Shown here: piece by piece, positions 33,172-48,651 of the stretch
How the letters are laid out: each line of letters opens with the position of its first letter
Position numbering within the stretch: position 1 is the stretch's first letter
Assembly (NCBI GenBank): GCA_020072845.1
Contig: JAIQGF010000004.1
Location: forward strand, 109,957-173,956
Direction: 5' to 3'
From: Terriglobia bacterium
GTDB lineage: Bacteria; Acidobacteriota; Terriglobia; Terriglobales; Acidobacteriaceae
DNA: 64,000 nt
Translations under genes and position numbers: made by a program
Notes under the pieces: model-generated
Seen by the model: only the letters and a program-made list of their open reading frames with translations
What the model was told of the DNA's origin: nothing
Database searches by the model: none

Positions 33172-33663
33172 ATGGCGACGGAGACTGAAGTCATCCCGGA
33201 AATATTGGCCCAATTTGACCAGACGCGTTCCAGCCTGATTCCCATCCTCCAGGAAATTCAGAACAAATACCGGTACTTGCCGCAGCCCATGCTGCGCCAG
33301 GTCGCGCTCAAGTTGGACGTGCCGCTGCCCGACGTTTACCACGTCGCCACCTTCTACAACTGCTTCAGCCTGGAGCCGGTGGGCCGCAACCTGGTGCAGG
33401 TATGCCTGGGCACCGCCTGCCACGTGCGCGGCGCGCCCAAGGTACTGGACCGCGTGCTCACCGACCTGAAGCTGCCCGCCCCGGGCACCAGCGCCGACAT
33501 GGAATTTACGGTGCGCACAGTGCGTTGTGTCGGCTGCTGCGGGCTGGCGCCGGTGGTGCGCGTCAACGACAGCACTCATCCGGCCATGACCCAGGCGAAG
33601 GTGAAAGGCATGCTGAAGAAGTATTACAGCAAGCCAGCGGTGAAAGCAGAAGCAGCGCAGTAG
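33172..33663 (+). CDS. NuoE-like [2Fe-2S] thioredoxin-fold subunit
   Basis: The 163-residue protein has the NuoE/HydC fold: a helical N-terminal half (IPILQEIQNKYRYLP) and the four cysteine ligands in CLGTACHVRG and CVGCCGLAP. It passes electrons between the FMN of the NuoF-like partner and an acceptor. It forms an operon with NuoF-like, HoxU-like and glutamate-synthase genes; there are no membrane Nuo subunits, so this is a soluble complex. Confidence 0.9.
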   Translation: MATETEVIPEILAQFDQTRSSLIPILQEIQNKYRYLPQPMLRQVALKLDVPLPDVYHVATFYNCFSLEPVGRNLVQVCLGTACHVRGAPKVLDRVLTDLKLPAPGTSADMEFTVRTVRCVGCCGLAPVVRVNDSTHPAMTQAKVKGMLKKYYSKPAVKAEAAQ

Positions 33664-33677
33664 CGCGAGGACATCCG

Positions 33678-35555
<1,878 letters not shown>

Positions 35556-35565
35556 GAGCGATCTC

Positions 35566-36285
35566 GTGCCGAAGCTGAGGATCAACGGCATTTCGGTGGA
35601 AGTGGAACCCGGCACTACCGTGCTGGAGTCCATCCGCTTCCTCGGTCTTCCCATCCCCACGCTGTGCCACGACGACGGCCTGCGCGACATCGGCGCCTGC
35701 CGCTTGTGCGTGGTGGAAGTCAGCATGGGCGCCAACGGGCGTACCCGCCTGTTGAGTGCCTGTACGCTCCCGGCGCAGGACGGCATGGAGGTCCGCACCA
35801 ACTCCGCCACCGTGCAGCGGGCCCGCAAGCTGCTGCTGGAGCTTTACGTCGCCACCTGCCCGCAGTCCAAGACCATCCAGGACCTGGCCAGCGAGTATGG
35901 CGTGCGCCAGTGCCGCTACGACACGCACAACGAGCACTGCATCCAGTGCGGGCTCTGTGTGCGCATCTGCGAGCAGCAGATGATGGCCGGCGCCATCGGA
36001 TTCTCCGGACGCGGCCACCACCGCCGCGTCTCCCGACCCTTCGACATCACCAGCGACAAGTGCCGCCAGTGCGGCGCTTGCATCTATGCCTGCCCCGTCT
36101 GCGAACTGCGGTGCCAAGCCTCCACGGCCACCACCGCGCTGTGCAGCGGATGCCTGAATTTCGCGCCCGTCTGCTTCCAAAGCTACGACGACGCTATGTG
36201 CTTTCTGGAACCGTGCCATGCCTGCGAGCTGACCGGTCCGATTCGCAGTGAAGTCCCAATCAAGCTTCGCGCAGGAAAAAATTAG
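35566..36285 (+). CDS. HoxU/NuoG-N-terminal-type iron-sulfur subunit
   Basis: GTG 35566 with AGGAG eight bases upstream gives 239 residues. The N terminus is a plant-type [2Fe-2S] domain (CHDDGLRDIGACRLCVVEV, then SACTLP), followed by a NuoG-like region and two [4Fe-4S] sets (CIQCGLCVRICEQ; CRQCGACIYACPVCELRC). The last 35 residues carry further cysteines (CSGCLNFAPVC, CHAC). It lacks the H-cluster or molybdopterin domain of hydrogenase or formate dehydrogenase subunits, so it looks like a wire joining the NADH module to the glutamate-synthase protein encoded next. Confidence 0.88.
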   Translation: MPKLRINGISVEVEPGTTVLESIRFLGLPIPTLCHDDGLRDIGACRLCVVEVSMGANGRTRLLSACTLPAQDGMEVRTNSATVQRARKLLLELYVATCPQSKTIQDLASEYGVRQCRYDTHNEHCIQCGLCVRICEQQMMAGAIGFSGRGHHRRVSRPFDITSDKCRQCGACIYACPVCELRCQASTATTALCSGCLNFAPVCFQSYDDAMCFLEPCHACELTGPIRSEVPIKLRAGKN

Positions 36286-36295
36286 GAGAAAACCG

Positions 36296-37948
36296 ATGAC
36301 TTATACACGCCTCAACGCTTCCGCGGCCACGCTGACCAAGAACCGCACCGCAGACTCGGTTAGCTCGCTCAGCGGAATGTGCACCACCTGCATTGACGGG
36401 TGCATCGGGATGTGCGAGATCGGCAAGTCGGCCTACCGCGGCCCGGAGATGATCTACCCGCAGCCGTTCGGGATCATCACCACCGCCTCGCAGAAGGATT
36501 ACCCGGTCGACCTGTCGCATTTCACCATCCTCGGGCGCTGCGCAGGCGCGTGGGGCTGCGAACCGGACAGCAACAAGGCGCTGTTCCCCAACGTCAACCT
36601 CGAGCAGACCATCGGGGCCGACAAGAAGAACGGCATCAAGTGCCGCCTCCCGTTCATCGGCGCCGCCATGGGTTCCACCAACGTCGCCAAGAACAACTGG
36701 CCGGAATACGCGGCCGGCCTGGCGATCAGCGGCGTGCCCATGGCCATCGGCGAGAACGTCACCGGCATGGACATGAACTCGCAGTTTGCCAATGGCAAGG
36801 TCATCTCCGCGCCCGAGCTGAAGTGGCGCGTGGATTCCTACCGCGACTGGCAGCTCGATGACTTCGGCGAGGTCATCCTCCAGGCCAACGTCGAGGACAC
36901 CATGCTCGGCGTGCAGGAATACGCCATCAAGAATCTCGGCGTCAAATCGGTCGAGCTGAAGTGGGGACAGGGCGCCAAGGACATCGGCGGCGAAGTCAAG
37001 ATCCGCGACCTCGCCAAGGCGCAGGAACTGCAAAAGCGCGGCTACATCGTGCTGCCCAACCCCACCGATCCTCTTGTCGTCGAGGCCTTCAAGCGCGGCG
37101 CCTTCCATGAATTCGAGCGCCACTCCCGCGTCGGCATGGTCACGCAAGATGGCTTCGTGAAGCGCGTCGAGGAGCTGCGCAAGTGCGGCGCCAAGCGCAT
37201 CACGCTGAAGACCGGCGCGTATCGTCCCGAGGACACCGCGCGCGCCGTCAAGTACGCCTCCATCTGCGAGCTCGACCTGCTCACCGTGGACGGCGCCGGC
37301 GGCGGCACCGGCATGAGCCCGTGGCGCATGATGAATGAGTGGGGCATCCCCACCGTCGAGCTGCACTCGCTGGTCTACGAGTACTACTGCAAGCTGGCCA
37401 GCAAGAAGATGTTCCTGCCCGACCTGGCGCTCGCCGGCGGCTTCACCTTCGAGGATCAGATGTTCAAGGGCTTCGCCCTCGGCGCTCCGTTCGTGAAGCT
37501 CATCGCCTACGCCCGCGCTCCGCTGGCCGCGGCCATGGTCGCCAAGAACATCGGCAAGGCAATCGAAGCGCAGAACCTGCCCATCTACATCCAGCGCTTC
37601 GGCCTCGGCGTGGACGAGATCTTCGTCACCGCCCACGAGCTGCGCCACATCCTCGGCGACCGCTTCAAGAAGCTGCCCACCGGCGCCATCGGCGTCTACA
37701 CCTACAACCAGCGGCTGGCACAGGGTCTGCGGCAGTTCATGACCGGCGCGCGCAAGTTCGCGCTGAAGTACATCACCCGCGACGACATCTGCAGCCTCAC
37801 GCCCGAAGGCGCTCGCGTCAGCGGCCTCGACTACATCATGGACGTGGACAAGAAGCAGGCCGACGCCATTCTGTTCTCGAACGGCACCTCCAAGGCCGCC
37901 GGGAAGCATGTGGCACTGGCGGGCAAGAACGGCAAGGCACGGAGATAG
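36296..37948 (+). CDS. Stand-alone FMN glutamate synthase domain (archaeal-type GltB)
   Basis: ATG 36296, after AGGAG, gives 550 residues. An N-terminal cysteine cluster (CTTCIDGCIGMC) and a GRCAGAWGCEP motif precede the FMN-binding barrel with KWGQGAKDIGG and VDGAGGGTGMSP, the GltB synthase signature. There is no glutaminase (GATase II) domain, so ammonia must come from elsewhere, or the enzyme uses free ammonia or another amine. The placement ten bases after the HoxU-like gene, with a terminator behind it, makes a four-subunit complex likely. Related proteins are called FMN-binding glutamate synthase family; the true substrate is uncertain. Confidence 0.85.
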   Translation: MTYTRLNASAATLTKNRTADSVSSLSGMCTTCIDGCIGMCEIGKSAYRGPEMIYPQPFGIITTASQKDYPVDLSHFTILGRCAGAWGCEPDSNKALFPNVNLEQTIGADKKNGIKCRLPFIGAAMGSTNVAKNNWPEYAAGLAISGVPMAIGENVTGMDMNSQFANGKVISAPELKWRVDSYRDWQLDDFGEVILQANVEDTMLGVQEYAIKNLGVKSVELKWGQGAKDIGGEVKIRDLAKAQELQKRGYIVLPNPTDPLVVEAFKRGAFHEFERHSRVGMVTQDGFVKRVEELRKCGAKRITLKTGAYRPEDTARAVKYASICELDLLTVDGAGGGTGMSPWRMMNEWGIPTVELHSLVYEYYCKLASKKMFLPDLALAGGFTFEDQMFKGFALGAPFVKLIAYARAPLAAAMVAKNIGKAIEAQNLPIYIQRFGLGVDEIFVTAHELRHILGDRFKKLPTGAIGVYTYNQRLAQGLRQFMTGARKFALKYITRDDICSLTPEGARVSGLDYIMDVDKKQADAILFSNGTSKAAGKHVALAGKNGKARR

Positions 37949-38123: not shown

Positions 38124-38687
38124 ATGCCTGACGCGGCTGCCAGCACGCTGCACGACGCCGTCCGCCGGCTCTGGCCGGAGCTGGAGTGGATTCAGAATGT
38201 TGGCCTACGCGAGCGGGTCGCGCGTACTTGGGAGCGCGCCTTTGAGCTGTCGCCGCTTGCGCCCGACGACCTCAGCCGCATCCCCTTCACGCTGCTGGTG
38301 CCCAACTGCCCGGCGACTTTCATGGAGCACAAGCGCTGCGTGGTGCATATCGCGCGGCGGGCGGCGGAAGCCATGCGGGAACACATGGGGCGCGCGCTGG
38401 CCATCGACATGGACGTGGTGATCGCGGGCGCGATCCTGGCTGACGTCGGCAAGCTGCTCGAATACGAAAACGTGAACGGCAAGACGCGCCAGTCGAAGCG
38501 CGGCGAGATGCTAAGGCATCCGTTCACCGGCGTGGCGCTGGCGATGGAATGCGGCGTGCCCGACGCGGTCTGCCACGTCATCGCCGCCCATGCCGCCGAG
38601 GGTGACCTGGTGAAACGCTCCACCGAAGCCACCATCGTGCACCACGCGGACTTCATGGCGTATGAGCCGTTCAAGAATTTGAAGTAG
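38124..38687 (+). CDS. HD-domain-like protein
   Basis: The 187-residue protein has the helical arrangement of HD phosphohydrolases: H69 in FMEHKRCVVHIARR, then AGAILADVGKLLEYE, RHPFTGVALAMECG, VIAAHAAEGD and VHHADFM. The central motif reads AD (A106-D107) where most HD enzymes have HD, so metal binding may differ or be lost. It stands alone after a terminator and before the MmgE/PrpD gene, from which it is separated by a word-repeat hairpin. Its role, perhaps nucleotide or signal turnover linked to the pathway, is unknown. Confidence 0.7.
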   Translation: MPDAAASTLHDAVRRLWPELEWIQNVGLRERVARTWERAFELSPLAPDDLSRIPFTLLVPNCPATFMEHKRCVVHIARRAAEAMREHMGRALAIDMDVVIAGAILADVGKLLEYENVNGKTRQSKRGEMLRHPFTGVALAMECGVPDAVCHVIAAHAAEGDLVKRSTEATIVHHADFMAYEPFKNLK

Positions 38688-38765: not shown

Positions 38766-40178
38766 ATGACGATCACCGGACCCATCTCAAAATTCGCGGC
38801 CTCGCTGAAATTCGAAGACCTGTCGCCTGACGCGATCTACCAGGCGAAGCGTTTCCTCCTGGATTCGCTGGGGTGCGCGCTGGGCGGATACCGGCAGCAT
38901 GACGTGATCATCGCGTTGCAGGTGCTGGACGAAATCGCCGGGCGCGGGCCGTGCACGGTGATCGGCAGCGGCAAGCGCGTGGACGCGGTGTCGGCGGCGC
39001 TGGCCAACGCGCTGATGATTCGCTGCATGGATTACAACGACATCTACTGGAAGCAGGACCCGTCGCATCCCTCCGACATTTTTCCCGCGGCGCTGGCTTG
39101 CTGCGAGCGCGCCGGGAGCGACGGGCGCGAGTTGATCGTCGGGCTGGTGCTGGGGCACGAGTTCGAGTGCCGCTTCTGCGAGGCGGCGTTTCCCGGCATT
39201 CGCGAGCGCGGCTGGCATCACGCCACGCTGACCGCGTTCGTTTCGCCCATCGTCGCCGGGCGCGCGCTACATCTTTCGGCCGAGCAAATTCAGCACGCCA
39301 TCGGCATCTCGGCCTCGCGCCATGCCACGCTGGGCGCGGTCACGGCCGGCAAGCTGACGATGATGAAGAACACGGTGGACCCGATGGCAACGCAGTCAGG
39401 CGTGCTGGCGGCGCTGATGGCGGAGAAGGGCTACACCGGGCCCGAGCACGTGGTGGACGGCAAGGAAGGGCTCACGCATTGCTTCGGGCCGGAGTGGAAG
39501 CTGAACGTGCTCACGGATGGACTCGGCGAATCGTGGCGCATCACGCAGTGCGGGATGAAGTTCTTCCCCACCGAGGCGTTGACGCACGCGCCGATCTCGG
39601 CGGTGCTCGACCTGGTGCGCGAGCACGATCTCAAGCCGGAGCAGGTGGAGAAGGTGCACATCCGCTCGCTGGCGCGCGCCGCCGACATCCTGAGCGATCC
39701 CAGCAAGTACGATCCGCACACGAAAGAAACCGCCGATCATTCGCTGCCCTACGTGATCGCCGCCGCGCTGGTGGACCGGCAGGTGACGCCGGCGCAGTTC
39801 ACGCCGGAGAAGATCATGGACCCGCAGATCCGCGCGCAGTTGCGCAAGGTGGAAGTGGTCGGCGATCCGGAGATCGAGAAAGTTTTCCCGGCGCTTCAGC
39901 GCGTGATCGTGACCATCCGCACGACCTCGGGACAGGAGTTCACCAGGCAGCTCGATTATCCCAAGGGCGATCCGCGGAATCCCTTGTCGGACGCGGAGAT
40001 TGAAGAGAAGTTCGCGGCGCTGGCCGGCCCGGTACTGTCGCGCGCGGCGCAGAAGAAGGTGCGCGAGGCAGTGTGGAACTTAGAGAAGCTGGAGTCGGTC
40101 ACAGCGCTAATGAAATTGCTGAAAGCGCGGCGAACGGCGAAGGAGAAGAGAACGGTCGAGCAGGCGAGCACGGCATAG
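38766..40178 (+). CDS. MmgE/PrpD family dehydratase
   Basis: The 470-residue protein has family motifs LDSLGCALGGY, MDYNDIYWKQDPSHPSD, GWHHATLTAFVSP and AIGISASRHATLGAV. MmgE/PrpD enzymes dehydrate 2-methylcitrate or citrate and, in other members, decarboxylate cis-aconitate. In this locus it is followed by an aconitase-family enzyme, an isocitrate-type dehydrogenase and citrate-lyase subunits, so a tricarboxylate such as citrate or a methyl/homo analogue is the likely substrate. The ribosome site is weak. Confidence 0.85.
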   Translation: MTITGPISKFAASLKFEDLSPDAIYQAKRFLLDSLGCALGGYRQHDVIIALQVLDEIAGRGPCTVIGSGKRVDAVSAALANALMIRCMDYNDIYWKQDPSHPSDIFPAALACCERAGSDGRELIVGLVLGHEFECRFCEAAFPGIRERGWHHATLTAFVSPIVAGRALHLSAEQIQHAIGISASRHATLGAVTAGKLTMMKNTVDPMATQSGVLAALMAEKGYTGPEHVVDGKEGLTHCFGPEWKLNVLTDGLGESWRITQCGMKFFPTEALTHAPISAVLDLVREHDLKPEQVEKVHIRSLARAADILSDPSKYDPHTKETADHSLPYVIAAALVDRQVTPAQFTPEKIMDPQIRAQLRKVEVVGDPEIEKVFPALQRVIVTIRTTSGQEFTRQLDYPKGDPRNPLSDAEIEEKFAALAGPVLSRAAQKKVREAVWNLEKLESVTALMKLLKARRTAKEKRTVEQASTA

Positions 40179-40190
40179 AGAATGCATAGA

Positions 40191-40225
40191 TCCTGAGCTC
40201 GCGCAAACCGGGCGCGAGCTCAGGA
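40191..40225 (+). terminator. 14-base perfect hairpin after the MmgE/PrpD gene
   Basis: TCCTGAGCTCGCGC (40191-40204) and GCGCGAGCTCAGGA (40212-40225) pair perfectly around AAACCGG, 13 bases after the stop at 40178. TGACGCC follows instead of a T-run. Its GCTC..GAGC..CAGGATGAC context resembles dispersed repeats, so it may be a repeat element acting as a partial terminator. Confidence 0.5.
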
Positions 40226-40263
40226 TGACGCCGATCTAACATTCGAGCTGTTGAAAGAACGTA

Positions 40264-42273
40264 ATGGGCCAGACAATCACTGAAAAGATCGCGCAGGCGC
40301 ACCTGGCGGAGGGACCGAAGCGGCCGCTACGGACGGGCGACTTCGTCTCCATCCGGCCGAAGCACGTCATGACCCACGACAACACTTCGGCGGTGATGAA
40401 GAAGTTCAAATCCATCGGCGCGCGGAAAATCCACGACACGCGCCAGCCGGTGTTCGCGCTCGACCACGACATACAGAACCAGAACGAGGACAACCAGAAG
40501 AAATACCGCGCCATCGAGGCGTTCGCCGGCGAGCACGGGATCGATTTCTACCCGGCGGGCACGGGTATCGGGCACCAGATCATGTGCGAGCGCGGCTACG
40601 TGACGCCGGGCTCGTTCGTTGTCGCCTCGGATTCGCATTCCAATATGTATGGCGCGCTGGGCGCGGTGGGAACGCCGGTGGTGCGCACCGACGCGGCCGC
40701 CATCTGGGCAACGGGCGAGTTCTGGTGGCAGATTCCGCGCACCGTGCAGGTAGTGCTGGAAGGCGCGCTGCGTGAGGGCGTCACCGGCAAGGACGTGATT
40801 ATCGCGCTGTGTGGCGCGTTCAATGTCCACGTGCTGAACGCGGCGGTGGAATTCAGCGGGCCAGGCGTAGCTTCGCTGTCGATGGACGCGCGTATGACCA
40901 TCGCCAACATGACGACCGAGTGGGGAGCGCTGGTGGGATGGTTCCCGGCGGATGAGATCACCATCAAGTGGCTGCGCGAACGCAGAGAAGAACGGATCAG
41001 AAGAGGCGAGCCAGAGCGTTACACGGAAGAAGATTTGCGGCGGTGGGCGGAAGAATGCACACGCGAGGGCGCGTGTGCCACAAAACCAGATGCGGATGCC
41101 GACTATGCCGCGCGCATCACGCTCGACCTCTCGCACCTGACGGCGCATGTATCGGGACCCGATACAGTGCAGGAGATGACCTCGCTGGCGGAGCTCGAAA
41201 AGAAGAAAGTCGCGATCCAGAAGGCGTACCTGCTCTCGTGCGTGAACTCGCGCGTCGAGGACCTGGAAGAAGCGGCGCTGGTGCTGCTGGGCAAGAAGGT
41301 AGCGCCGTCGGTGAAGTTCTACCTGGGAGCGGCCAGCAAGCTGGTGAAGGAAGAGGCGGAGCGGCGCGGTATCTGGCGGACACTGGTGGAATCCGGCGCG
41401 CAGACGTTGCCGGCCGGATGCGGGCCGTGCATCGGGCTGGGCGTGGGATTGCTGGAGCCGGGCGAAGTCGGCATCTCGGCCACCAATCGCAATTTCAAGG
41501 GACGCATGGGATCGCGCGACGCGCAGTGCTATCTCGCGTCACCGGCGGTAGTAGCGGCGAGTGCGGTCGCAGGCTACATCTGCGGGCCGGAGGCGCTGAA
41601 ACGGCCGCTGAATGAGCATGAAGACCGCAAGAAGCAAGGCGGCATGCTGGCGAGATACAAGAATCTGCAAGCTGGGCGCAAAACGGAACAGGCAAGCGAA
41701 ACCGTGGAGATTGTTCCCGGATTTCCCGAGCGCGTTCGCGGGCGGCTGGTGCTGGTGCCCAAGGGCAATCTGAACACCGACGCGATTTATCCCGGCAGCT
41801 ACACCTATCGCGACGATGTGACGCCCGAGATGATGGCCGAGGTGGTGTTCTCCAATTACGATCCGCAGTTTCCGCAGATCACGCGCGCTGGTGACGTGGT
41901 GGTCGGCGGCGCGAACTTCGGCACCGGATCCAGCCGCGAGCAGGCAGCAACCTCGCTGAAGGCGAAAGGATTTCCGCTGGTGATCGCCGCGTCGTTTTCG
42001 CAGACGTACCTGCGCAATGCGTTCAACAACGGGTTCCTGTGCATCGAAATTCCGGAACTGGTGAAGCGGCTGAAGGCGGATTTTGCGGCGCAGATCGCGG
42101 CCGGCGAGAAGACGATCATTCCGGGCGACGAGATCGAAGTGGACTTCACCATCGGGGCGGTCACATGGCGGGGTGACCAGTTCCATTTCCCGCCGCTGGG
42201 CAGCGTGCCACAATCGCTGGTTGTCGCGGGCGGGGTGGAGAATCTAGTGGCGAAACGCCTGGGCTTAGCGTGA
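40264..42273 (+). CDS. Aconitase-family hydratase, large and swivel domains fused
   Basis: The 669-residue enzyme begins with a LeuC-like catalytic part (GDFVSIRPKHVMTHDNTSAV, VVASDSHSNMYGALG) and the [4Fe-4S] ligands in LLSCVNSRVEDL and GCGPCIGLG. It ends with a LeuD-like swivel domain (GNLNTDAIYPG, GGANFGTGSSREQA). Most bacterial homologues of this group are two-chain; here both parts are one polypeptide, as in homoaconitase of fungi. It should interconvert a 2-hydroxy and 3-hydroxy tricarboxylate via the aconitate form. Substrate (citrate, homocitrate, methylcitrate) is not decided. Confidence 0.85.
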   Translation: MGQTITEKIAQAHLAEGPKRPLRTGDFVSIRPKHVMTHDNTSAVMKKFKSIGARKIHDTRQPVFALDHDIQNQNEDNQKKYRAIEAFAGEHGIDFYPAGTGIGHQIMCERGYVTPGSFVVASDSHSNMYGALGAVGTPVVRTDAAAIWATGEFWWQIPRTVQVVLEGALREGVTGKDVIIALCGAFNVHVLNAAVEFSGPGVASLSMDARMTIANMTTEWGALVGWFPADEITIKWLRERREERIRRGEPERYTEEDLRRWAEECTREGACATKPDADADYAARITLDLSHLTAHVSGPDTVQEMTSLAELEKKKVAIQKAYLLSCVNSRVEDLEEAALVLLGKKVAPSVKFYLGAASKLVKEEAERRGIWRTLVESGAQTLPAGCGPCIGLGVGLLEPGEVGISATNRNFKGRMGSRDAQCYLASPAVVAASAVAGYICGPEALKRPLNEHEDRKKQGGMLARYKNLQAGRKTEQASETVEIVPGFPERVRGRLVLVPKGNLNTDAIYPGSYTYRDDVTPEMMAEVVFSNYDPQFPQITRAGDVVVGGANFGTGSSREQAATSLKAKGFPLVIAASFSQTYLRNAFNNGFLCIEIPELVKRLKADFAAQIAAGEKTIIPGDEIEVDFTIGAVTWRGDQFHFPPLGSVPQSLVVAGGVENLVAKRLGLA

Positions 42274-42287
42274 CGACAAAATCATTT

Positions 42288-42366
42288 CCGATTGTCGATT
42301 GTCGATTGTCGATTTCCAGCGCTCGCGGGTTTGCAATCGACAATCATCAATCGACAATCGGCAATT
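42288..42366. repeat. Word-repeat hairpin, GATTGTC type
   Basis: Four degenerate copies of ATTGTCG (42288-42315), an 18-base spacer, then the reverse complement words (CAATCGACAATCATCAATCG and on, 42334-42366). It starts 15 bases after the aconitase-family stop and ends 15 bases before the dehydrogenase start, next to AGGTGA. Confidence 0.65.
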
Positions 42367-42380
42367 CTTTTAGGTGATCC

Positions 42381-43595
42381 ATGGCGAAATACACGGTCGT
42401 ATCCATGCCCGGCGATGGGATCGGGAACCAGGTTTTGCCTGAGGCGATTCGCGTGCTCGATGCGGTCGGCTTCGACGCGACCTACGTGCACGGCGACATC
42501 GGCTGGGAGTTCTGGAAGACACAAGGCAATGCCCTGCCCGACCGCACCATCGCACTGCTGGAAAAACATAAGCTCGGGTTGTTCGGCGCGATCACGTCGA
42601 AGCCGAAGAAGGAAGCGGACGCCGAGCTTTCGCCCGCGCTGAAAGGCAAGGGCTACACGTATTATTCGCCGATCGTGACCATGCGGCAGCGGTTCAACCT
42701 CGATATCTGCGTGCGACCGTGCATCGGGTTTCCCGGCAATCCTCTGAATTTCGTTCGCAAGAAAGTCGCCGGCGGATTTGAAGAGCCGCGGGTCAACGTG
42801 GTCGTGTTCCGCCAGAACACCGAGGGGCTGTACTGCGGCGTCGAGTGGACCAACCCGCCGGCGCTGGTGCGGCAGGCGCTGGAGTCGCACCCGAAGTTCA
42901 AGCCGTTCGCGGGGACGAAGGGCGAGGACCTGGCGATCTCGGTGCGAATCATCACGCGGCGCGGGGCGGAGGGCATTTGCCGCGCGGCGTTTGAGCACGC
43001 CAGGAAATACGGCTACAAGAACGTGACCATCTGCGAGAAGCCCAACGTGCTGCGCGAAACCAGCGGCATGATGGAAGAGGCGGCAAAGCAGGTGGCGAAG
43101 GATTATGCCGGCATTCCGCTGTGGTCCACTAACATTGACGCGCAGACGATGTGGCTGACCAAGAACCCGGAAGACTACGGCGTGATCGTCGCGTCGAACC
43201 TGTTCGGCGACGTGATTTCCGACGCGTTTGCCGGACTCGTAGGCGGGCTCGGCTTTGCGGCGAGCGGAAACATCGGCGACGAGGTCGCGGTTTTCGAGCC
43301 GACGCACGGATCGGCGCCGAAGTATGCCGAGCTGAATCCGCCGATCGTCAACCCGATTGCGATGATTCTCTCGGCGGCGATGATGCTGGACCATGTCGGG
43401 GAGCACGACAAGGCGGAGCGCGTGCGAGGCGCGATTGCTGCCGTCGTGAGTGAGGGAAAAGTCCGCACTTATGACATGATGCGCATACCCGGGGGCGCAA
43501 AGTCCATTGCGCAGGGCGCGGCAACAACGCCGCAGATGACGGATGCAATTTTGAAGAAGCTGAAGTCAGCGAAGGTTGGAACTGCGGCGGATTAG
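42381..43595 (+). CDS. Isocitrate/isopropylmalate-type dehydrogenase
   Basis: The 404-residue protein has the family start MPGDGIGNQVLPEAIRVLD, a substrate segment with MRQRFNLDICVRP, NIDAQTMWLTKNP and the SNLFGDVISD metal/NAD motif followed by SGNIGDEVAVFEPTHGSAPK. The sequence after the NAD strand looks like NAD-dependent members. In this place it would oxidise the product of the aconitase-family enzyme to a 2-oxo acid, 2-oxoglutarate if the substrate is isocitrate. 3-isopropylmalate, homoisocitrate and tartrate are alternatives. Confidence 0.87.
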   Translation: MAKYTVVSMPGDGIGNQVLPEAIRVLDAVGFDATYVHGDIGWEFWKTQGNALPDRTIALLEKHKLGLFGAITSKPKKEADAELSPALKGKGYTYYSPIVTMRQRFNLDICVRPCIGFPGNPLNFVRKKVAGGFEEPRVNVVVFRQNTEGLYCGVEWTNPPALVRQALESHPKFKPFAGTKGEDLAISVRIITRRGAEGICRAAFEHARKYGYKNVTICEKPNVLRETSGMMEEAAKQVAKDYAGIPLWSTNIDAQTMWLTKNPEDYGVIVASNLFGDVISDAFAGLVGGLGFAASGNIGDEVAVFEPTHGSAPKYAELNPPIVNPIAMILSAAMMLDHVGEHDKAERVRGAIAAVVSEGKVRTYDMMRIPGGAKSIAQGAATTPQMTDAILKKLKSAKVGTAAD

Positions 43596-43598
43596 CTT

Positions 43599-44879
43599 AT
43601 GGCTACAACAGCGAATGTGAACACGACGGCATTCGAGGCGGGCAGGAGCGGTCCGGACGTGCGCTCGGATTGCCGAGTCGTGTTCGTGCCTCGCTCCGCC
43701 GGCGGCATTGATATCGAGTTGCAATCAAAGGTCGCGGCGTACTACGGCGATTCGATTTTGACGCAGGCGCGGCAGGTGCTAGGCGATCTCGGAGTTGAGC
43801 ACGCGCGGCTGCTGATTGAAGACCAGGGCGCGCTGCCCTTCGTGATCGCGGCGCGCATCGAGGCTGCGGTGCGGCGGGCCGGTTTGGGCGAGGGGCGGCG
43901 GTCACTGCCCGAACCAGTCACGCTGCCGGCGCCGTCGGCGCGCGATCGCCTGCGCCGGTCGAGGCTGTATCTGCCGGGCAGCGAGCCGAAGTATTTCATC
44001 AACGCCGCGCTGCATGCGCCCGACACGATCATTCTCGATTTGGAAGATGCGGTCCACGCCCATGAAAAAGATGCGGCGCGCGTGCTGGTGCGCAATGCGC
44101 TGCGCGCGGTGGATTTCGGCGCGTGCGAGCGCATGGTGCGCATCAACCAGCTCCCGCTCGGGCTGGCGGATTTGGACGAGGTGGTGCCGGAATCGCCCGA
44201 CCTCATCCTGCTTCCGAAAGCCGAGCACGCCGCGCAGGTCACGGAGGTCGAACAGAGGATTGCGCGCGTGCAGTCGCGCTGCGGCGTACATCGCGACATC
44301 TGGCTGCTGCCGATCCTGGAGACCGCGCTGGGAATTGAGAATGCGTGGGCGATCGCAACTGCATCGCCGCGCAATGTGGCGCTGACCATCGGGCTGGAGG
44401 ATTACACTGCCGACCTGGGCGTGGCGAAGACGGCGTTGGGGGCGGAGTCGCTGTACGCGCGCACGCGCCTGGTGAATGCCGCGCGGGCCGCCGGTTTGCA
44501 GGCGAACGATTCGGTGTACGGCGATGTTGGCGACCTGGAAGGACTGGCAACCTGGGCCCGCAACGCACGCGCGCTCGGGTTTGAGGGCATGGGGTGCGTG
44601 CATCCGCTGCAGGTCGCGGTGATTCACGAAGCGTTCGCGCCGACGCCGCAGGAAATCGAGCGGGCGCTGCGCATCGTGACGGCGTATGAAGACGCACAGG
44701 CGCGCGGGCTCGGCGTGGTGAGTTTGGGGTCGAAGATGATCGACGCTCCCGTGGTGCAGCGCGCGCTCAAACTGGTACAGAGGGCCGAGCGCATGGGGGT
44801 GGTCACGCAGGAGATGCGCGCTGCGGCGGCGGTGCGCGCGGCGGCGCCGCAAGCGGCATCGGAGGGCGGAGAGGGATGA
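43599..44879 (+). CDS. Citrate-lyase-type CitD-CitE fusion (acyl carrier plus beta subunit)
   Basis: The 426-residue protein opens with a CitD-like acyl-carrier domain (about residues 12-98), in which S23 in VRSDCRVVF aligns with the prosthetic-group serine of CitD. A CitE/HpcH aldolase barrel follows (RSRLYLPGSEPK, IILDLEDAVH, EAHEK-like motif, LLPKAEH, GLEDYTADLG). The fusion is unusual; these are normally two genes. It cleaves the citryl or citramalyl thioester. CitF follows with an ATGA overlap. The CitC/CitG/CitX activation genes are not in the window. Confidence 0.82.
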   Translation: MATTANVNTTAFEAGRSGPDVRSDCRVVFVPRSAGGIDIELQSKVAAYYGDSILTQARQVLGDLGVEHARLLIEDQGALPFVIAARIEAAVRRAGLGEGRRSLPEPVTLPAPSARDRLRRSRLYLPGSEPKYFINAALHAPDTIILDLEDAVHAHEKDAARVLVRNALRAVDFGACERMVRINQLPLGLADLDEVVPESPDLILLPKAEHAAQVTEVEQRIARVQSRCGVHRDIWLLPILETALGIENAWAIATASPRNVALTIGLEDYTADLGVAKTALGAESLYARTRLVNAARAAGLQANDSVYGDVGDLEGLATWARNARALGFEGMGCVHPLQVAVIHEAFAPTPQEIERALRIVTAYEDAQARGLGVVSLGSKMIDAPVVQRALKLVQRAERMGVVTQEMRAAAAVRAAAPQAASEGGEG

Positions 44880-46450
44880 GCACCACCGCGAGTTCGATTG
44901 AACTGGTCACCAACGCCGCCGGACGTGTGGTGCCGACGAACGTGAATGGCGCGCCGCAGCGGCCGTACGCGGGCGTCAACAACGATCATCCGCAGGGACG
45001 CAAGGCCGCGCAGCCGATCCGCACTGCCGCCGATTACCCGAGGAACGGCGACAAGCGCGTCGCGGATCTCGAAACCGCGTTGCGCCAATGCGGGCTGAGC
45101 GACGGGATGACCATCTCGACGCACCATCACCTGCGCGACGGTGACCAGGTTGCGCTGTGGGCGCTGCAGACGGCGGCGAAGATGGGCAGGCGCGAGCTGA
45201 TGTGGTTTCCGAGCGCGTCATTTCCCGCGCACGCGCCGGTCATCGAGCTGATGGAAGCCGGCAACGTGCATCACATCGAGGGCTCGATGAACGGGCCGCT
45301 GGGCGACTACTGCACGCAGGGGCGGATGCGCGGCATGGGCGTGCTGCGCTCGCACGGCGGGCGCTGGCAGGCGATCCAGGACGGCGAGGTGCACATTGAT
45401 ATCGCGGTGATTGCCGCGCCCACCGCCGACGCGTTCGGCAACGCCAACGGATCGCACGGGCCGTCCGCCTGCGGGTCGCTGGGGTTCGCGCTGGCGGATT
45501 CGATGTACGCCGACCGTGTGATCGTGGTCACCGATAACCTGGTCGAGTTCCCCTGCGTGCCGTGGCAGATCCAGGGCAACAACGTGGATTGCGTGGTGCC
45601 GGTGGATTCGATCGGCGACCCGGCGAAGATCGTGTCGGGCACAACGCAGATTACGCGCTCGCCCGACCGGCTGCTGATCGCGCAGTACGTGGCGCAGTTC
45701 GTGCGCGACGCGGGCATCATGCGCCCGGGCTTCTCGTTCCAGGCAGGAGCGGGCGGCATCGCGCTGGCGTTCGCGGATTATCTGCGGCGGTACATGAAGC
45801 AGAGCGGCGTGCGGGCGCGGTTCGTGCGCGGCGGCTCCACCCGCTACCTGGTCGAACTGCTCAAGGAAGGGCTTACCGATTACATCCTAGACGGGCAGAC
45901 CTTCGACCTGGACGCGGTGCGCTCCATCGCCAGCGATCCGCGGCATGTGCCCACCTCGCCGTTCACCTCGTACAACTACCACGGCAAGGGATTTTTCAAT
46001 TCCCTGGTGGACGTGGTGGTGCTGGGCGCGACCGAGGTGGACGTGAACTTCAACGCCAACGTGGTGACCCACTCCGACGGCCGCCTGCTGCACGGCATCG
46101 GCGGCTGGCAGAACTGCCTGTTCGCGGGGTGCACCATCCTGGCAGTGCCCTCGTTCCGCGATCGCATTCCGGTGATTGTGGACCAGGTGACAACGCTCAC
46201 CGGGCCGGGCGAGCTGATCGATGTTGTCGTCACCGAGCGCGGGATCGCAATCAACCCGCGGCGCAAAGACCTGCTGGATGCGATGAAAGGCTCCTCCCTT
46301 CCCATTCGTCCAATCCAGGAAATGCAGCGCGAGATTGAGAAGATCTGCGGCGGCAAACCGCAGAAGCCGCGCCTGACCGAGAAGCCCGTCGCGGTGGTGA
46401 AGTGGGTGGACGGCACGGTGCTGGACACGGTGTGGCAAGTCCGCACCTGA
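44876..46450 (+). CDS. citF: Citrate lyase alpha subunit (CitF-like CoA/ACP transferase)
   Basis: The 524-residue protein follows CitF throughout: TISTHHHLRDGDQV, HIEGSMNGPLGDYCTQGRMRG, RSHGGRWQAIQDGEVHIDIA, PTADAFGNANGSHGPSACGSLG and RGIAINPRRKDL. It transfers the acyl group from acetyl-carrier to citrate or a similar acid. Operon partner of the CitD-CitE fusion, overlapping it by four bases. Citramalate lyase alpha is a close alternative. Confidence 0.87.
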   Translation: MSTTASSIELVTNAAGRVVPTNVNGAPQRPYAGVNNDHPQGRKAAQPIRTAADYPRNGDKRVADLETALRQCGLSDGMTISTHHHLRDGDQVALWALQTAAKMGRRELMWFPSASFPAHAPVIELMEAGNVHHIEGSMNGPLGDYCTQGRMRGMGVLRSHGGRWQAIQDGEVHIDIAVIAAPTADAFGNANGSHGPSACGSLGFALADSMYADRVIVVTDNLVEFPCVPWQIQGNNVDCVVPVDSIGDPAKIVSGTTQITRSPDRLLIAQYVAQFVRDAGIMRPGFSFQAGAGGIALAFADYLRRYMKQSGVRARFVRGGSTRYLVELLKEGLTDYILDGQTFDLDAVRSIASDPRHVPTSPFTSYNYHGKGFFNSLVDVVVLGATEVDVNFNANVVTHSDGRLLHGIGGWQNCLFAGCTILAVPSFRDRIPVIVDQVTTLTGPGELIDVVVTERGIAINPRRKDLLDAMKGSSLPIRPIQEMQREIEKICGGKPQKPRLTEKPVAVVKWVDGTVLDTVWQVRT

Positions 46451-46506: not shown

Positions 46507-48651
46507 ATGACAACTTCACCGCGATATCGCCACCGTGCTTTCGCGACCGCCGTCCTCTCTGCTTCACTGCTGCTCACCCCGGCGCTGCACGCGCGCTTCA
46601 CGCTCGAACAGGTGATGGGTTCCCCGTTCCCCAGCAACTTGACCGCCGCCGAACGCAGTCCCCGCGTGGCTTGGGTATTCGACGAGAAGGGGGTGCGCAA
46701 CATCTGGGTGGCGGAAGCGCCCAATTTCGCTGCACGCCAGATGACGCATTATTCGGCGGACGATGGCATGGCGTTGTCGAGCGTGCGATTGACGCCGGAT
46801 GGCCGCACCGTGGTTTACGTGCGCGGCAGCGAGACCAACAAGAAGGGTGAAGTCGCCGACCCGACCAGCAATGTCCAGCAGCCCCACCAGGAAGTGTGGG
46901 CGGTGGATGCCGACAAAGGCGAACCGCGCCTGCTGGGCACGATGGAGTGCAACGAGGAAGACTGCGAAGACGCGCAGATTTCCCCGGACGGCGAACGGGC
47001 GGTGTGGTCCGGCGCTAAAGGGCAGTTGTGGTTCGCGCCGGTCTCGGGAGCGGAGAAGGCAAAGCAGCTTACCTACGTGCGCGGCGAGAACAGCAGCCCG
47101 CGCTGGTCGCCCGACGGCAAGCGCATCGCGTTCACCAGCAACCGCGGCGATCACAGCTTCATTGCGGTGTATGAATTTGGCGGCGACACACTGCGCTACG
47201 TGGCGGCCTCGGCCGATCGGGACATCATGCCGCGCTGGTCGCCCGACGGAACCCGGATCGCGTTTGTTCGCCTGCACGGCGCCGAACGCGGCCTGCCGAT
47301 CATCCCCGTGCGTCCTGTGCCGTGGGCCATCTGGGTCGCCGATGCCGCGACGCTGGATGCTCGCGAAGTTTGGCATAGCACGAATGATGCCGCTGGATCC
47401 TTCCCCGAACTGGTAGCCGAGCAGGCGTTCATCTTCGCCGCCGGCAACCGCGTGGTGTTCGCCAGCGAGCAGGACGGCTGGGCCCACCTGTATTCCGTTT
47501 CCGACGGCGGTGGCAAGGAAACGCTGCTCACGCCGGGGCAGTTTGAATTCGAGGATGTGGCCCTCAGCACGGACAAAAAGTCGGTGATCTACACCTCGAA
47601 CCAGGGAGACATTGACCGGCGTCACGTGTGGCGCGTGCCGGTGGAGGGCGGCACGCCGCAAGCGCTTTCGCGCGGCGAGACCATCGAATGGGCCCCAGTG
47701 GAAACCAGCGGCGGCAAGTTCGTGCTCTGCCTGGGCTCGACTGCAACCTCGCCGGCAATGCCGTACTTGCTTACGCCACAGGGCAGGCAGATGATCGCCA
47801 AACAAGCGCTGCCCGCCGATTTTCCCAGCGCAGAACTGGTCACGCCGAAGCAAGTGATCTTCAAATCAGACGACGGACTGGAAATTCACGGCCAACTGTT
47901 TGTCCCGCCGGGAAGGACGGCTCCCGGTCCGGCGCTCATCTTCACCCACGGCGGCTCGATGCGCCAGATGATGCTCGGCTTCCACTACATGTACTACTAC
48001 CACAATGCGTACGCCGAGAATCAGTACCTGGCGTCGCTGGGCTACGTGGTGTTGTCTGTGAACTACCGCACCGGGATCATGTATGGGCGCGCGTTCCGTA
48101 TGGCGCCGAAAACGGGCTGGCGCGGCGGAACCGAGTACAAGGACGTGGTCGCCGGGGCGCAGTATCTGCGATCGCTGCCGTACGTGGACGTGAACAAGAT
48201 CGGCCTTTGGGGCGGCTCCTATGGCGGATATTTGACGGCGATGGGGCTGGCGCGGAACTCCGACCTGTTCGCCGCCGGTGTGGACATGCACGGAGTACAC
48301 GACTGGTTTTCGGAGGCGCGGCACTGGCACCCCACGCTGGGCGAAGATGCGCCCGACTTGGCGGAGGCGAAGAAGCTGGCGTTGGAGTCGTCGCCGATCT
48401 CGACGATTGCGCAGTGGCGCTCGCCGGTGCTGCTGATCCAGGGCGACGACGATCGCAACGTTCCCTTCAACCAGACCGTGGACCTGGTGCAGCGCCTGCG
48501 CGCGCAGAAGACTCCGTTCGAAACGATCGTCTTCCCCGACGAGATCCACGATTTCCTGCTGTGGCGGAGCTGGGTGCGCGCCTACGCGGCGACCGCAGAA
48601 TTCTTCGATCGCGTGTTGAAGCGCGGCGAGAAAATCGGCGTGCCGCACTAG
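46507..48651 (+). CDS. S9-family prolyl oligopeptidase-like peptidase
   Basis: The 714-residue protein has a signal peptide-like N terminus (about 11-30), a beta-propeller with WD40-like PD40 repeats (SPRWSPDGKRIAFTSNRGD, MPRWSPDGTRIAFVR), and a C-terminal alpha/beta hydrolase with the nucleophile in GGSYGGYLT, the aspartate in GDDDRNVPF and the histidine in DEIHDFLL. It is a periplasmic or secreted dipeptidyl/acylaminoacyl peptidase. It stands alone and runs convergent to the decayed CRTAC1-like gene. Confidence 0.9.
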   Translation: MTTSPRYRHRAFATAVLSASLLLTPALHARFTLEQVMGSPFPSNLTAAERSPRVAWVFDEKGVRNIWVAEAPNFAARQMTHYSADDGMALSSVRLTPDGRTVVYVRGSETNKKGEVADPTSNVQQPHQEVWAVDADKGEPRLLGTMECNEEDCEDAQISPDGERAVWSGAKGQLWFAPVSGAEKAKQLTYVRGENSSPRWSPDGKRIAFTSNRGDHSFIAVYEFGGDTLRYVAASADRDIMPRWSPDGTRIAFVRLHGAERGLPIIPVRPVPWAIWVADAATLDAREVWHSTNDAAGSFPELVAEQAFIFAAGNRVVFASEQDGWAHLYSVSDGGGKETLLTPGQFEFEDVALSTDKKSVIYTSNQGDIDRRHVWRVPVEGGTPQALSRGETIEWAPVETSGGKFVLCLGSTATSPAMPYLLTPQGRQMIAKQALPADFPSAELVTPKQVIFKSDDGLEIHGQLFVPPGRTAPGPALIFTHGGSMRQMMLGFHYMYYYHNAYAENQYLASLGYVVLSVNYRTGIMYGRAFRMAPKTGWRGGTEYKDVVAGAQYLRSLPYVDVNKIGLWGGSYGGYLTAMGLARNSDLFAAGVDMHGVHDWFSEARHWHPTLGEDAPDLAEAKKLALESSPISTIAQWRSPVLLIQGDDDRNVPFNQTVDLVQRLRAQKTPFETIVFPDEIHDFLLWRSWVRAYAATAEFFDRVLKRGEKIGVPH

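Follow-up and report, generated by a model that had tools for sequence, protein, structure and literature searches.

The six-gene unit and its conservation

The window analysed here is a 64,000-nucleotide stretch (G000:C4:109957-173956; contig JAIQGF010000004.1) from a Terriglobia bacterium whose 4.23-Mb genome has a completeness score of 100%, and it carries on its + strand a six-gene module in which hydratase- and dehydrogenase-type enzymes stand next to a citrate-lyase-like pair. Protein searches found the closest named relatives among metagenome-assembled genomes (MAGs) of Acidobacteriota (Terriglobales, 'Candidatus Sulfotelmatobacter', Acidobacteriaceae). An earlier note, made from the letters alone, had described five codirectional genes, and all five are present, intact and on the same strand; it had placed the start of the module too late, missing the HD gene that belongs to it. 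This first gene encodes an HD-domain protein of 187 amino acids (38124..38687, +), recognised as a member by its conserved linkage. It ends 78 bases before the gene of an MmgE/PrpD-family dehydratase (38766..40178, +; 470 amino acids; PF03972 and PF19305), the proposed homocitrate (or citrate) dehydratase. A fused-domain homoaconitase-type hydratase (40264..42273, +; 669 amino acids; TIGR00139) and a beta-decarboxylating dehydrogenase of the isocitrate/homoisocitrate type (42381..43595, +; 404 amino acids; PF00180, 252.5 bits) follow. The substrate loop of the dehydrogenase carries the motif SPIV (residues 96-99; 42666..42677, +), where isocitrate dehydrogenases (IDH) have S-x-N-V. The lyase arm consists of a CitD-CitE fusion, CitDE (43599..44879, +; 426 amino acids), with a CitD-like domain at residues 23-94 (PF06857) and a CitE-like lyase domain at 117-397 (PF03328), and of a CitF-like acyl transferase (44876..46450, +; 524 amino acids; PF04223, 435 bits) whose start overlaps the end of CitDE. 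CitDE also carries an RSD motif (R22-S23-D24; 43662..43670, +), which aligned with S14-[S/G]15-D16 of canonical CitD. The gaps from PrpD to CitF are 85, 107, 3 and -4 bases, which is operon-like.

The genome contigs were scanned with CitDE as query, a search that reached close relatives only and gave 66 loci. All six genes were found on one strand in the order HD-PrpD-aconitase-dehydrogenase-CitDE-CitF at 36 of them, and three others (Ignavibacteria/Bacteroidetes MAGs) held all six as IDH-HD-Acn-PrpD-CitDE-CitF. The tables of the remaining 27 loci were read by hand: contig ends truncate 19, and the other eight are not truncated (L087, L092, L102, L105, L113, L119, L134 and L139, the last containing 700 masked bases). 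CitDE is present in L066 and L111. The carriers are labelled Acidobacteria, Gemmatimonadota, Deltaproteobacteria, Rhodothermales, Bacteroidetes/Bacteroidales and Ignavibacteria. Co-occurrence was examined in 120 genomes, our own included, a carrier being defined by a CitF match over 260 bits. CitF matches occurred in 30 genomes, and 25 were counted as carriers of a full-type CitF; the match in G045 is partial and lies at a contig end. The counted non-carriers were G009 and G049 (27.4 and 27.7 bits, partial domain, Pfam cut-off 27) and G098, G102 and G111, which were below the cut-off. The TIGR00139 aconitase was over its cut-off in 23 genomes and close HD homologues were present in 24, all of them within the 25 carriers (Fisher p ~1e-22 and ~2e-24, respectively, relatedness not corrected). 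Left uncounted were a weak HD match in G116 (E 2.6e-4) and the sub-cut-off TIGR00139 matches in 119 genomes, which are ordinary aconitase-family relatives. Two carriers lack a scored aconitase: in G001 the contig stops just past CitF, and in G029 it breaks off within the aconitase gene. The only carrier without an HD match is again G029. In G051 and G052 all parts of the module exist, although they are spread over different contigs. The gene arrangement of the module goes far past what chance would produce, and the self-contained tricarboxylate unit of the earlier note, in which hydratase and dehydrogenase form one arm and the lyase the other, is conserved in relatives.

Some genomes hold additional copies or parts of the module. 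The Acidobacteriaceae MAG palsa_252 (PLBY01 contigs L102 and L085) has, besides a complete module, another CitDE-CitF pair at a separate place, and G052 has two PrpD-aconitase-dehydrogenase sets (L189, G052:C1; L190, G052:C5) with CitDE-CitF on a third contig. In a class-level relative, L194 (G094:C354, 178-4181) encodes a module-like pair of aconitase (31-35% identity) and dehydrogenase (50-52%), the latter keeping SPIV and the Lys of a Lys-Tyr pair described below; PrpD, HD and lyase genes are not in its 7.7-kb contig. This pair possibly represents an ancestral form or a different use.

Features of the encoded enzymes

The alignments comprised only stop-free proteins of more than 90% of the length of the window protein, which was included: 56 of 69 CitDE, 52 of 60 dehydrogenases, 50 of 56 aconitases, 45 of 46 HD proteins and 44 of 50 PrpD. 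L128 was excluded from the dehydrogenase alignment because its stretch held a stop codon. The subunit families of the lyase are those of the citrate lyase of Klebsiella, Gluconobacter and Enterococcus, our canonical references, and CitF, CitE and CitD were all over their Pfam cut-offs. The identity to the three sets was 40-41% for CitF and 39-41% for the CitE domain. All three missed their NCBIfam equivalogs (citF TIGR01584, 482.6 of 501.45 bits; citE TIGR01588, 267.6 of 443.4; citD TIGR01608, 60.0 of 63.5), and the RipC model gave 161.9 against a cut-off of 375 on CitDE. The three aligned canonical CitD proteins read S-S-D at positions 14-16, and Ser14 is the attachment site of the prosthetic group. 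In the module proteins this position is Arg in 56/56, followed by Ser in 56/56 and Asp in 56/56, so that the idea of an ordinary citrate lyase short only of its activation genes is not supported.

PMC10798043 describes how CitG and CitX make and attach the prosthetic group of known citrate lyase, which CitC acetylates. CitX was found in none of the 120 genomes and none of 13 more distant carriers (completeness not stated), and CitG in one of the 120 (G095, which lacks CitF) and none of the same 13, so that neither occurs in the 38 carriers searched. No CitC was over the cut-off (262.1 bits) in the 120 genomes, 25 carriers included; there were 17 weak partial matches of 20-31 bits, including one in the carrier G033 (26.6 bits). 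The search of our own whole genome found no CitG or CitX and gave no match for CitC, and the absence of activation genes suspected earlier was borne out. Unlike canonical citrate lyase, the module has CitD fused to CitE, and its lyase genes are embedded in a hydratase/dehydrogenase operon. Judged by these features the enzyme is no ordinary citrate lyase. The CitE-type domain is likewise found in stand-alone CoA lyases (citramalyl-CoA, malyl-CoA), and those CitE-like enzymes that have been characterised outside citrate lyase work on free CoA thioesters (PMC3832036). The stand-alone enzymes are not known to have a CitF partner or a CitD domain, whereas the module has both.

The aconitase passed the homoaconitase model TIGR00139 with 725.7 bits against a cut-off of 529.9, being the only one of the five proteins from PrpD to CitF to reach an NCBIfam equivalog cut-off, and this model was over its cut-off in none of 14 control genomes. 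Its [4Fe-4S] cysteines C326, C386 and C389 were kept in 50/50. The general aconitase/isopropylmalate-dehydratase model PRK00402 was narrowly missed (380.7 of 385), and the aconitate-hydratase, isopropylmalate and archaeal citramalate/homocitrate isomerase models were below their cut-offs. The loop NTDGIYPGKYTYQDD of the aconitase at L133 presumably resembles that of fungal Lys4. The genome has a fourth aconitase-family gene (L071:545-2746, G000:C16), which reaches none of the listed NCBIfam cut-offs (best 316.9 of 385); many relatives have matches of similar strength, about 150 bits to TIGR00139. PrpD missed the prpD (2-methylcitrate dehydratase) equivalogs by a wide margin (93.9/950, 79.8/575 and 55.7/458 bits), and its nearest solved relatives are IDS-epimerase, B. 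subtilis IRG1 and cis-aconitate decarboxylase.

In the dehydrogenase, R102, R112, R144, Y151, K220, D253, D277 and D281 were the same in all 12 module proteins and five paralogues compared; we take these to be the catalytic residues known from E. coli Icd. The SPIV loop and HGSAPKY were each found in 52/52. The Ile of this loop stands where aligned isocitrate dehydrogenases have Asn, and this Ile, though not the Arg that stands there for the Val of SPIV, is common to the homoisocitrate dehydrogenases 3asj/1x0l of Thermus. A Lys-Tyr pair is shared with the NADP-IDH of the genome, while the NAD-IDH-type protein has Asp-Ile, and the module enzyme is predicted to be NADP-dependent. The homoisocitrate dehydrogenase models were missed (AksF2, 275.8 of 540; AksF, 259 of 500; iso_homocit_dh, 147.8 of 680), and no model named for fungal Lys12 was among the matches. 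The conserved loop GAITSKPK...KG.Y.SPIV is longer than in any of the five same-genome paralogues. A PDB search with the 34-residue loop gave one weak IDH match and no homoisocitrate dehydrogenase. SPIV presumably occurs in fungal Lys12 as well.

The predicted structure of the HD protein had a predicted local distance difference test score (pLDDT) of 86.5, and the fold search gave YhaM as the best match (E 1.3e-5), followed by weak matches (E 0.027 and up) to Ddi2 cyanamide hydratase and others. H69, D107, H132, H156 and D176 were invariant in the 45 sequences, and the His of the HD doublet was replaced by Ala in 41 and by Ile in four. The fold was considered as a guide to function, and beyond the HD domain no function follows from it. 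The close linkage to the module makes the protein a candidate activator (perhaps a replacement one), regulator or extra enzyme.

The proposed route and its alternatives

We favour, at somewhat less than even confidence, the reading that the six genes form an operon for a side route of the homocitrate type, whose lyase would most likely act on free acetyl-CoA. In this scheme 2-oxoadipate + CO2 + NADPH would be interconverted with homoisocitrate, homoaconitate and homocitrate, and homocitrate would be split to 2-oxoglutarate + acetate. PrpD would dehydrate homocitrate to homoaconitate, the fused hydratase would convert homoaconitate to homoisocitrate, and the NADP-linked dehydrogenase would interconvert homoisocitrate with 2-oxoadipate + CO2. 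CitF and CitDE would cleave homocitrate to acetate and 2-oxoglutarate by a citrate-lyase-like mechanism, in which acyl exchange by CitF (homocitrate + acetyl-CoA -> homocitryl-CoA + acetate) is followed by cleavage in the CitE domain (homocitryl-CoA -> 2-oxoglutarate + acetyl-CoA). With free acetyl-CoA as the thioester, CitG, CitX and CitC would be unnecessary. The likely net flow would run from 2-oxoadipate, for example from lysine breakdown, to 2-oxoglutarate + acetate; we infer substrate, carrier and direction alike.

Homocitrate is favoured, with modest confidence, because TIGR00139 was passed, PrpD would fill a gap in the pathway and the isocitrate-type Asn is gone; the aconitase leans towards the 'homo' analogue that the earlier note had allowed. 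Fungal homoaconitases interconvert homoaconitate and homoisocitrate only, and the dehydration of homocitrate needs a second enzyme (PMC3556520). The adjoining PrpD would fit this gap, which the AcnA of the genome could also fill. Compared with the fungal alpha-aminoadipate segment (Lys4/LysF, Lys12), whose homoaconitase model the module enzyme passes, PrpD would replace aconitase in the first half-step, and the lyase arm would open homocitrate, which in fungi homocitrate synthase makes. The module dehydrogenase is predicted to use NADP, whereas Lys12p was assayed with NAD (PMC3556520). The superfamilies and the chemistry are also those of HacAB and homoisocitrate dehydrogenase of Thermus and methanogens, in which large and small subunits are split, and the NF040615, NF040604 and AksF models were missed by the module proteins.

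A number of points weigh against the homocitrate route. None of the four HMGL-type proteins of the genome reaches a homocitrate-synthase equivalog cut-off, and an own-genome homocitrate synthase was rejected: one passes a LeuA model, two pass no cut-off and the remaining one is nearest to HMG-CoA lyase (218 of 246 bits). No lysine or 2-oxoadipate gene was recognised among the neighbours examined, breakdown genes not having been searched for genome-wide. The other neighbours (AMP-binding/acyltransferase, ferric-reductase-like, Ig-domain, molybdopterin, PAS kinase and M20 peptidase genes) were uninformative as substrate clues. Just downstream of the module, on the opposite strand, L132 and L135 (both Bacteroidetes MAGs) have an acetyl-CoA synthetase and an ATP-type phosphoenolpyruvate (PEP) carboxykinase, the families having been tested for L132 and recognised in L135 by similar protein starts; these would suit acetate + oxaloacetate and hence plain citrate. 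The reductive carboxylation costs NADPH, and 3asj/1x0l have Arg where the module dehydrogenase has the Val of SPIV. Finally, a prosthetic group may be attached in a non-canonical way at the invariant RSD serine, one residue from the canonical site.

It is rather unlikely that the module isomerises and splits another branched tricarboxylate or malate analogue, such as a longer homologue, citramalate or an isopropylmalate-like acid. The dehydrogenase loop, longer than in the five paralogues, may mean a pocket for something unusual, the best equivalog score of this enzyme is far below the cut-off, and PRK00402 was only narrowly missed by the aconitase. The isopropylmalate and archaeal citramalate/homocitrate isomerase models, however, stayed below their cut-offs where the homoaconitase model passed, and 2-methylisocitrate is ruled out for the dehydrogenase because its alcohol carbon is tertiary. 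A methylcitrate cycle was rejected for this reason and for the missed PrpD models.

Citrate itself is an unlikely substrate. The module would then be a parallel NADP-linked reductive branch, a segment of the tricarboxylic acid (TCA) cycle run backwards when needed (2-oxoglutarate + CO2 -> isocitrate -> aconitate -> citrate -> oxaloacetate + acetate). All enzyme families of the module include members that act on the citrate series, both the loop Ser and the NADP-type KY pair are present in the dehydrogenase, and L132 and apparently L135 have the acetyl-CoA synthetase and PEP carboxykinase genes beside the module. On the other hand, the aconitase fails the aconitate-hydratase models where it passes that for homoaconitase, Ile replaces the isocitrate-type loop Asn, and a second canonical set, as the earlier note had proposed to look for, is encoded elsewhere: AcnA, NADP-IDH, an NAD-IDH-type protein (just under cut-offs) and three citrate synthases (L001-L003; G000:C5, C9), two of them classified (type I, and PRK09569/eukaryote-like Si type). 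A citrate branch beside these enzymes would invite a futile cycle. The genome also has LeuB/LeuC and two more tartrate/isopropylmalate-dehydrogenase-type proteins. The module is therefore a side route, and its role as a substitute for TCA genes was rejected.

An ordinary prosthetic-group citrate lyase, with the roles of CitG, CitX and CitC taken by unrecognised proteins, among which the HD protein is a candidate, appears improbable. The CitD-like domain is kept with an invariant RSD in all 56 near-full-length proteins, which suggests that it still does something, and the HD gene tracks the module closely. Against this stand the Arg at the position of the modified Ser, the first Ser of canonical S-S-D, the absence of CitX and CitG from every carrier searched, and the failure of all three lyase subunits to reach an equivalog cut-off. 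Ordinary citrate fermentation was rejected for the lack of citG/citX, of citC over the cut-off and of Ser14, and also for the different canonical operons. Chance co-location or decaying remnant genes can be dismissed almost entirely, because the unit is conserved in relatives: gene order extends across phyla, the genes co-occur even when apart (G051, G052), active-site residues are intact, and we found no point favouring such a reading.

Novelty, implications and neighbouring genes

The unit is a new assembly of known families, to which we infer a homocitrate-splitting function. It is doubtful, though conceivable, that it constitutes a 'homocitrate lyase' pathway shortening 2-oxoadipate to 2-oxoglutarate + acetate, with the covalent cofactor swapped for free acetyl-CoA and an HD partner gained; its homoaconitase and dehydrogenase may be the bacterial relatives that gave rise to fungal Lys4 and Lys12. 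In a literature search that covered few subscription papers, no description of such an operon was found, 'homocitrate lyase' appeared in no paper, and none joined homoaconitase, homoisocitrate dehydrogenase, citrate lyase and bacteria. The single paper that names citrate lyase, Acidobacteria and homoaconitase (PMC11237513) does so in unrelated places, and PMC3534657 reports a TCA cycle and no ATP-citrate lyase for the Melioribacter genome. If the proposal is true, several phyla whose bacteria are mostly uncultivated have a branch of central carbon metabolism that was undescribed so far, and PrpD/MmgE proteins have a new job. It would further imply that a citrate-lyase complex can function without a covalent prosthetic group, and it would offer a testable bacterial source for fungal homoaconitase. 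Annotators should be warned that, at such loci, the homology labels citrate lyase, isocitrate dehydrogenase and homoaconitase may send models of the TCA cycle, the reductive TCA cycle or lysine synthesis astray.

The module had been thought to follow the glutamate-synthase genes directly, which is not the case because the HD gene (38124-38687) lies between the glutamate-synthase-like gene and PrpD. The upstream region (33402-37948) encodes a NuoF/NuoE-like flavoprotein, a HoxU/hydrogenase-diaphorase-like protein and a protein of 550 amino acids in which a glutamate-synthase domain is weakly matched (PF01645, 45 bits) and which no NCBIfam model hits, possibly a separate electron-transfer complex. 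The glutamate-synthase-like gene adjoins the module only within the same genus (L048, L056) and at none of the 66 CitDE loci, and a functional tie to it and to the NuoEF-like genes was rejected for this limited neighbourhood. On the other side, a peptidase-like gene (46507-48651), labelled S9 peptidase by eye without a family search, begins 56 bases after CitF and adjoins it only within the same genus (L049, L056).

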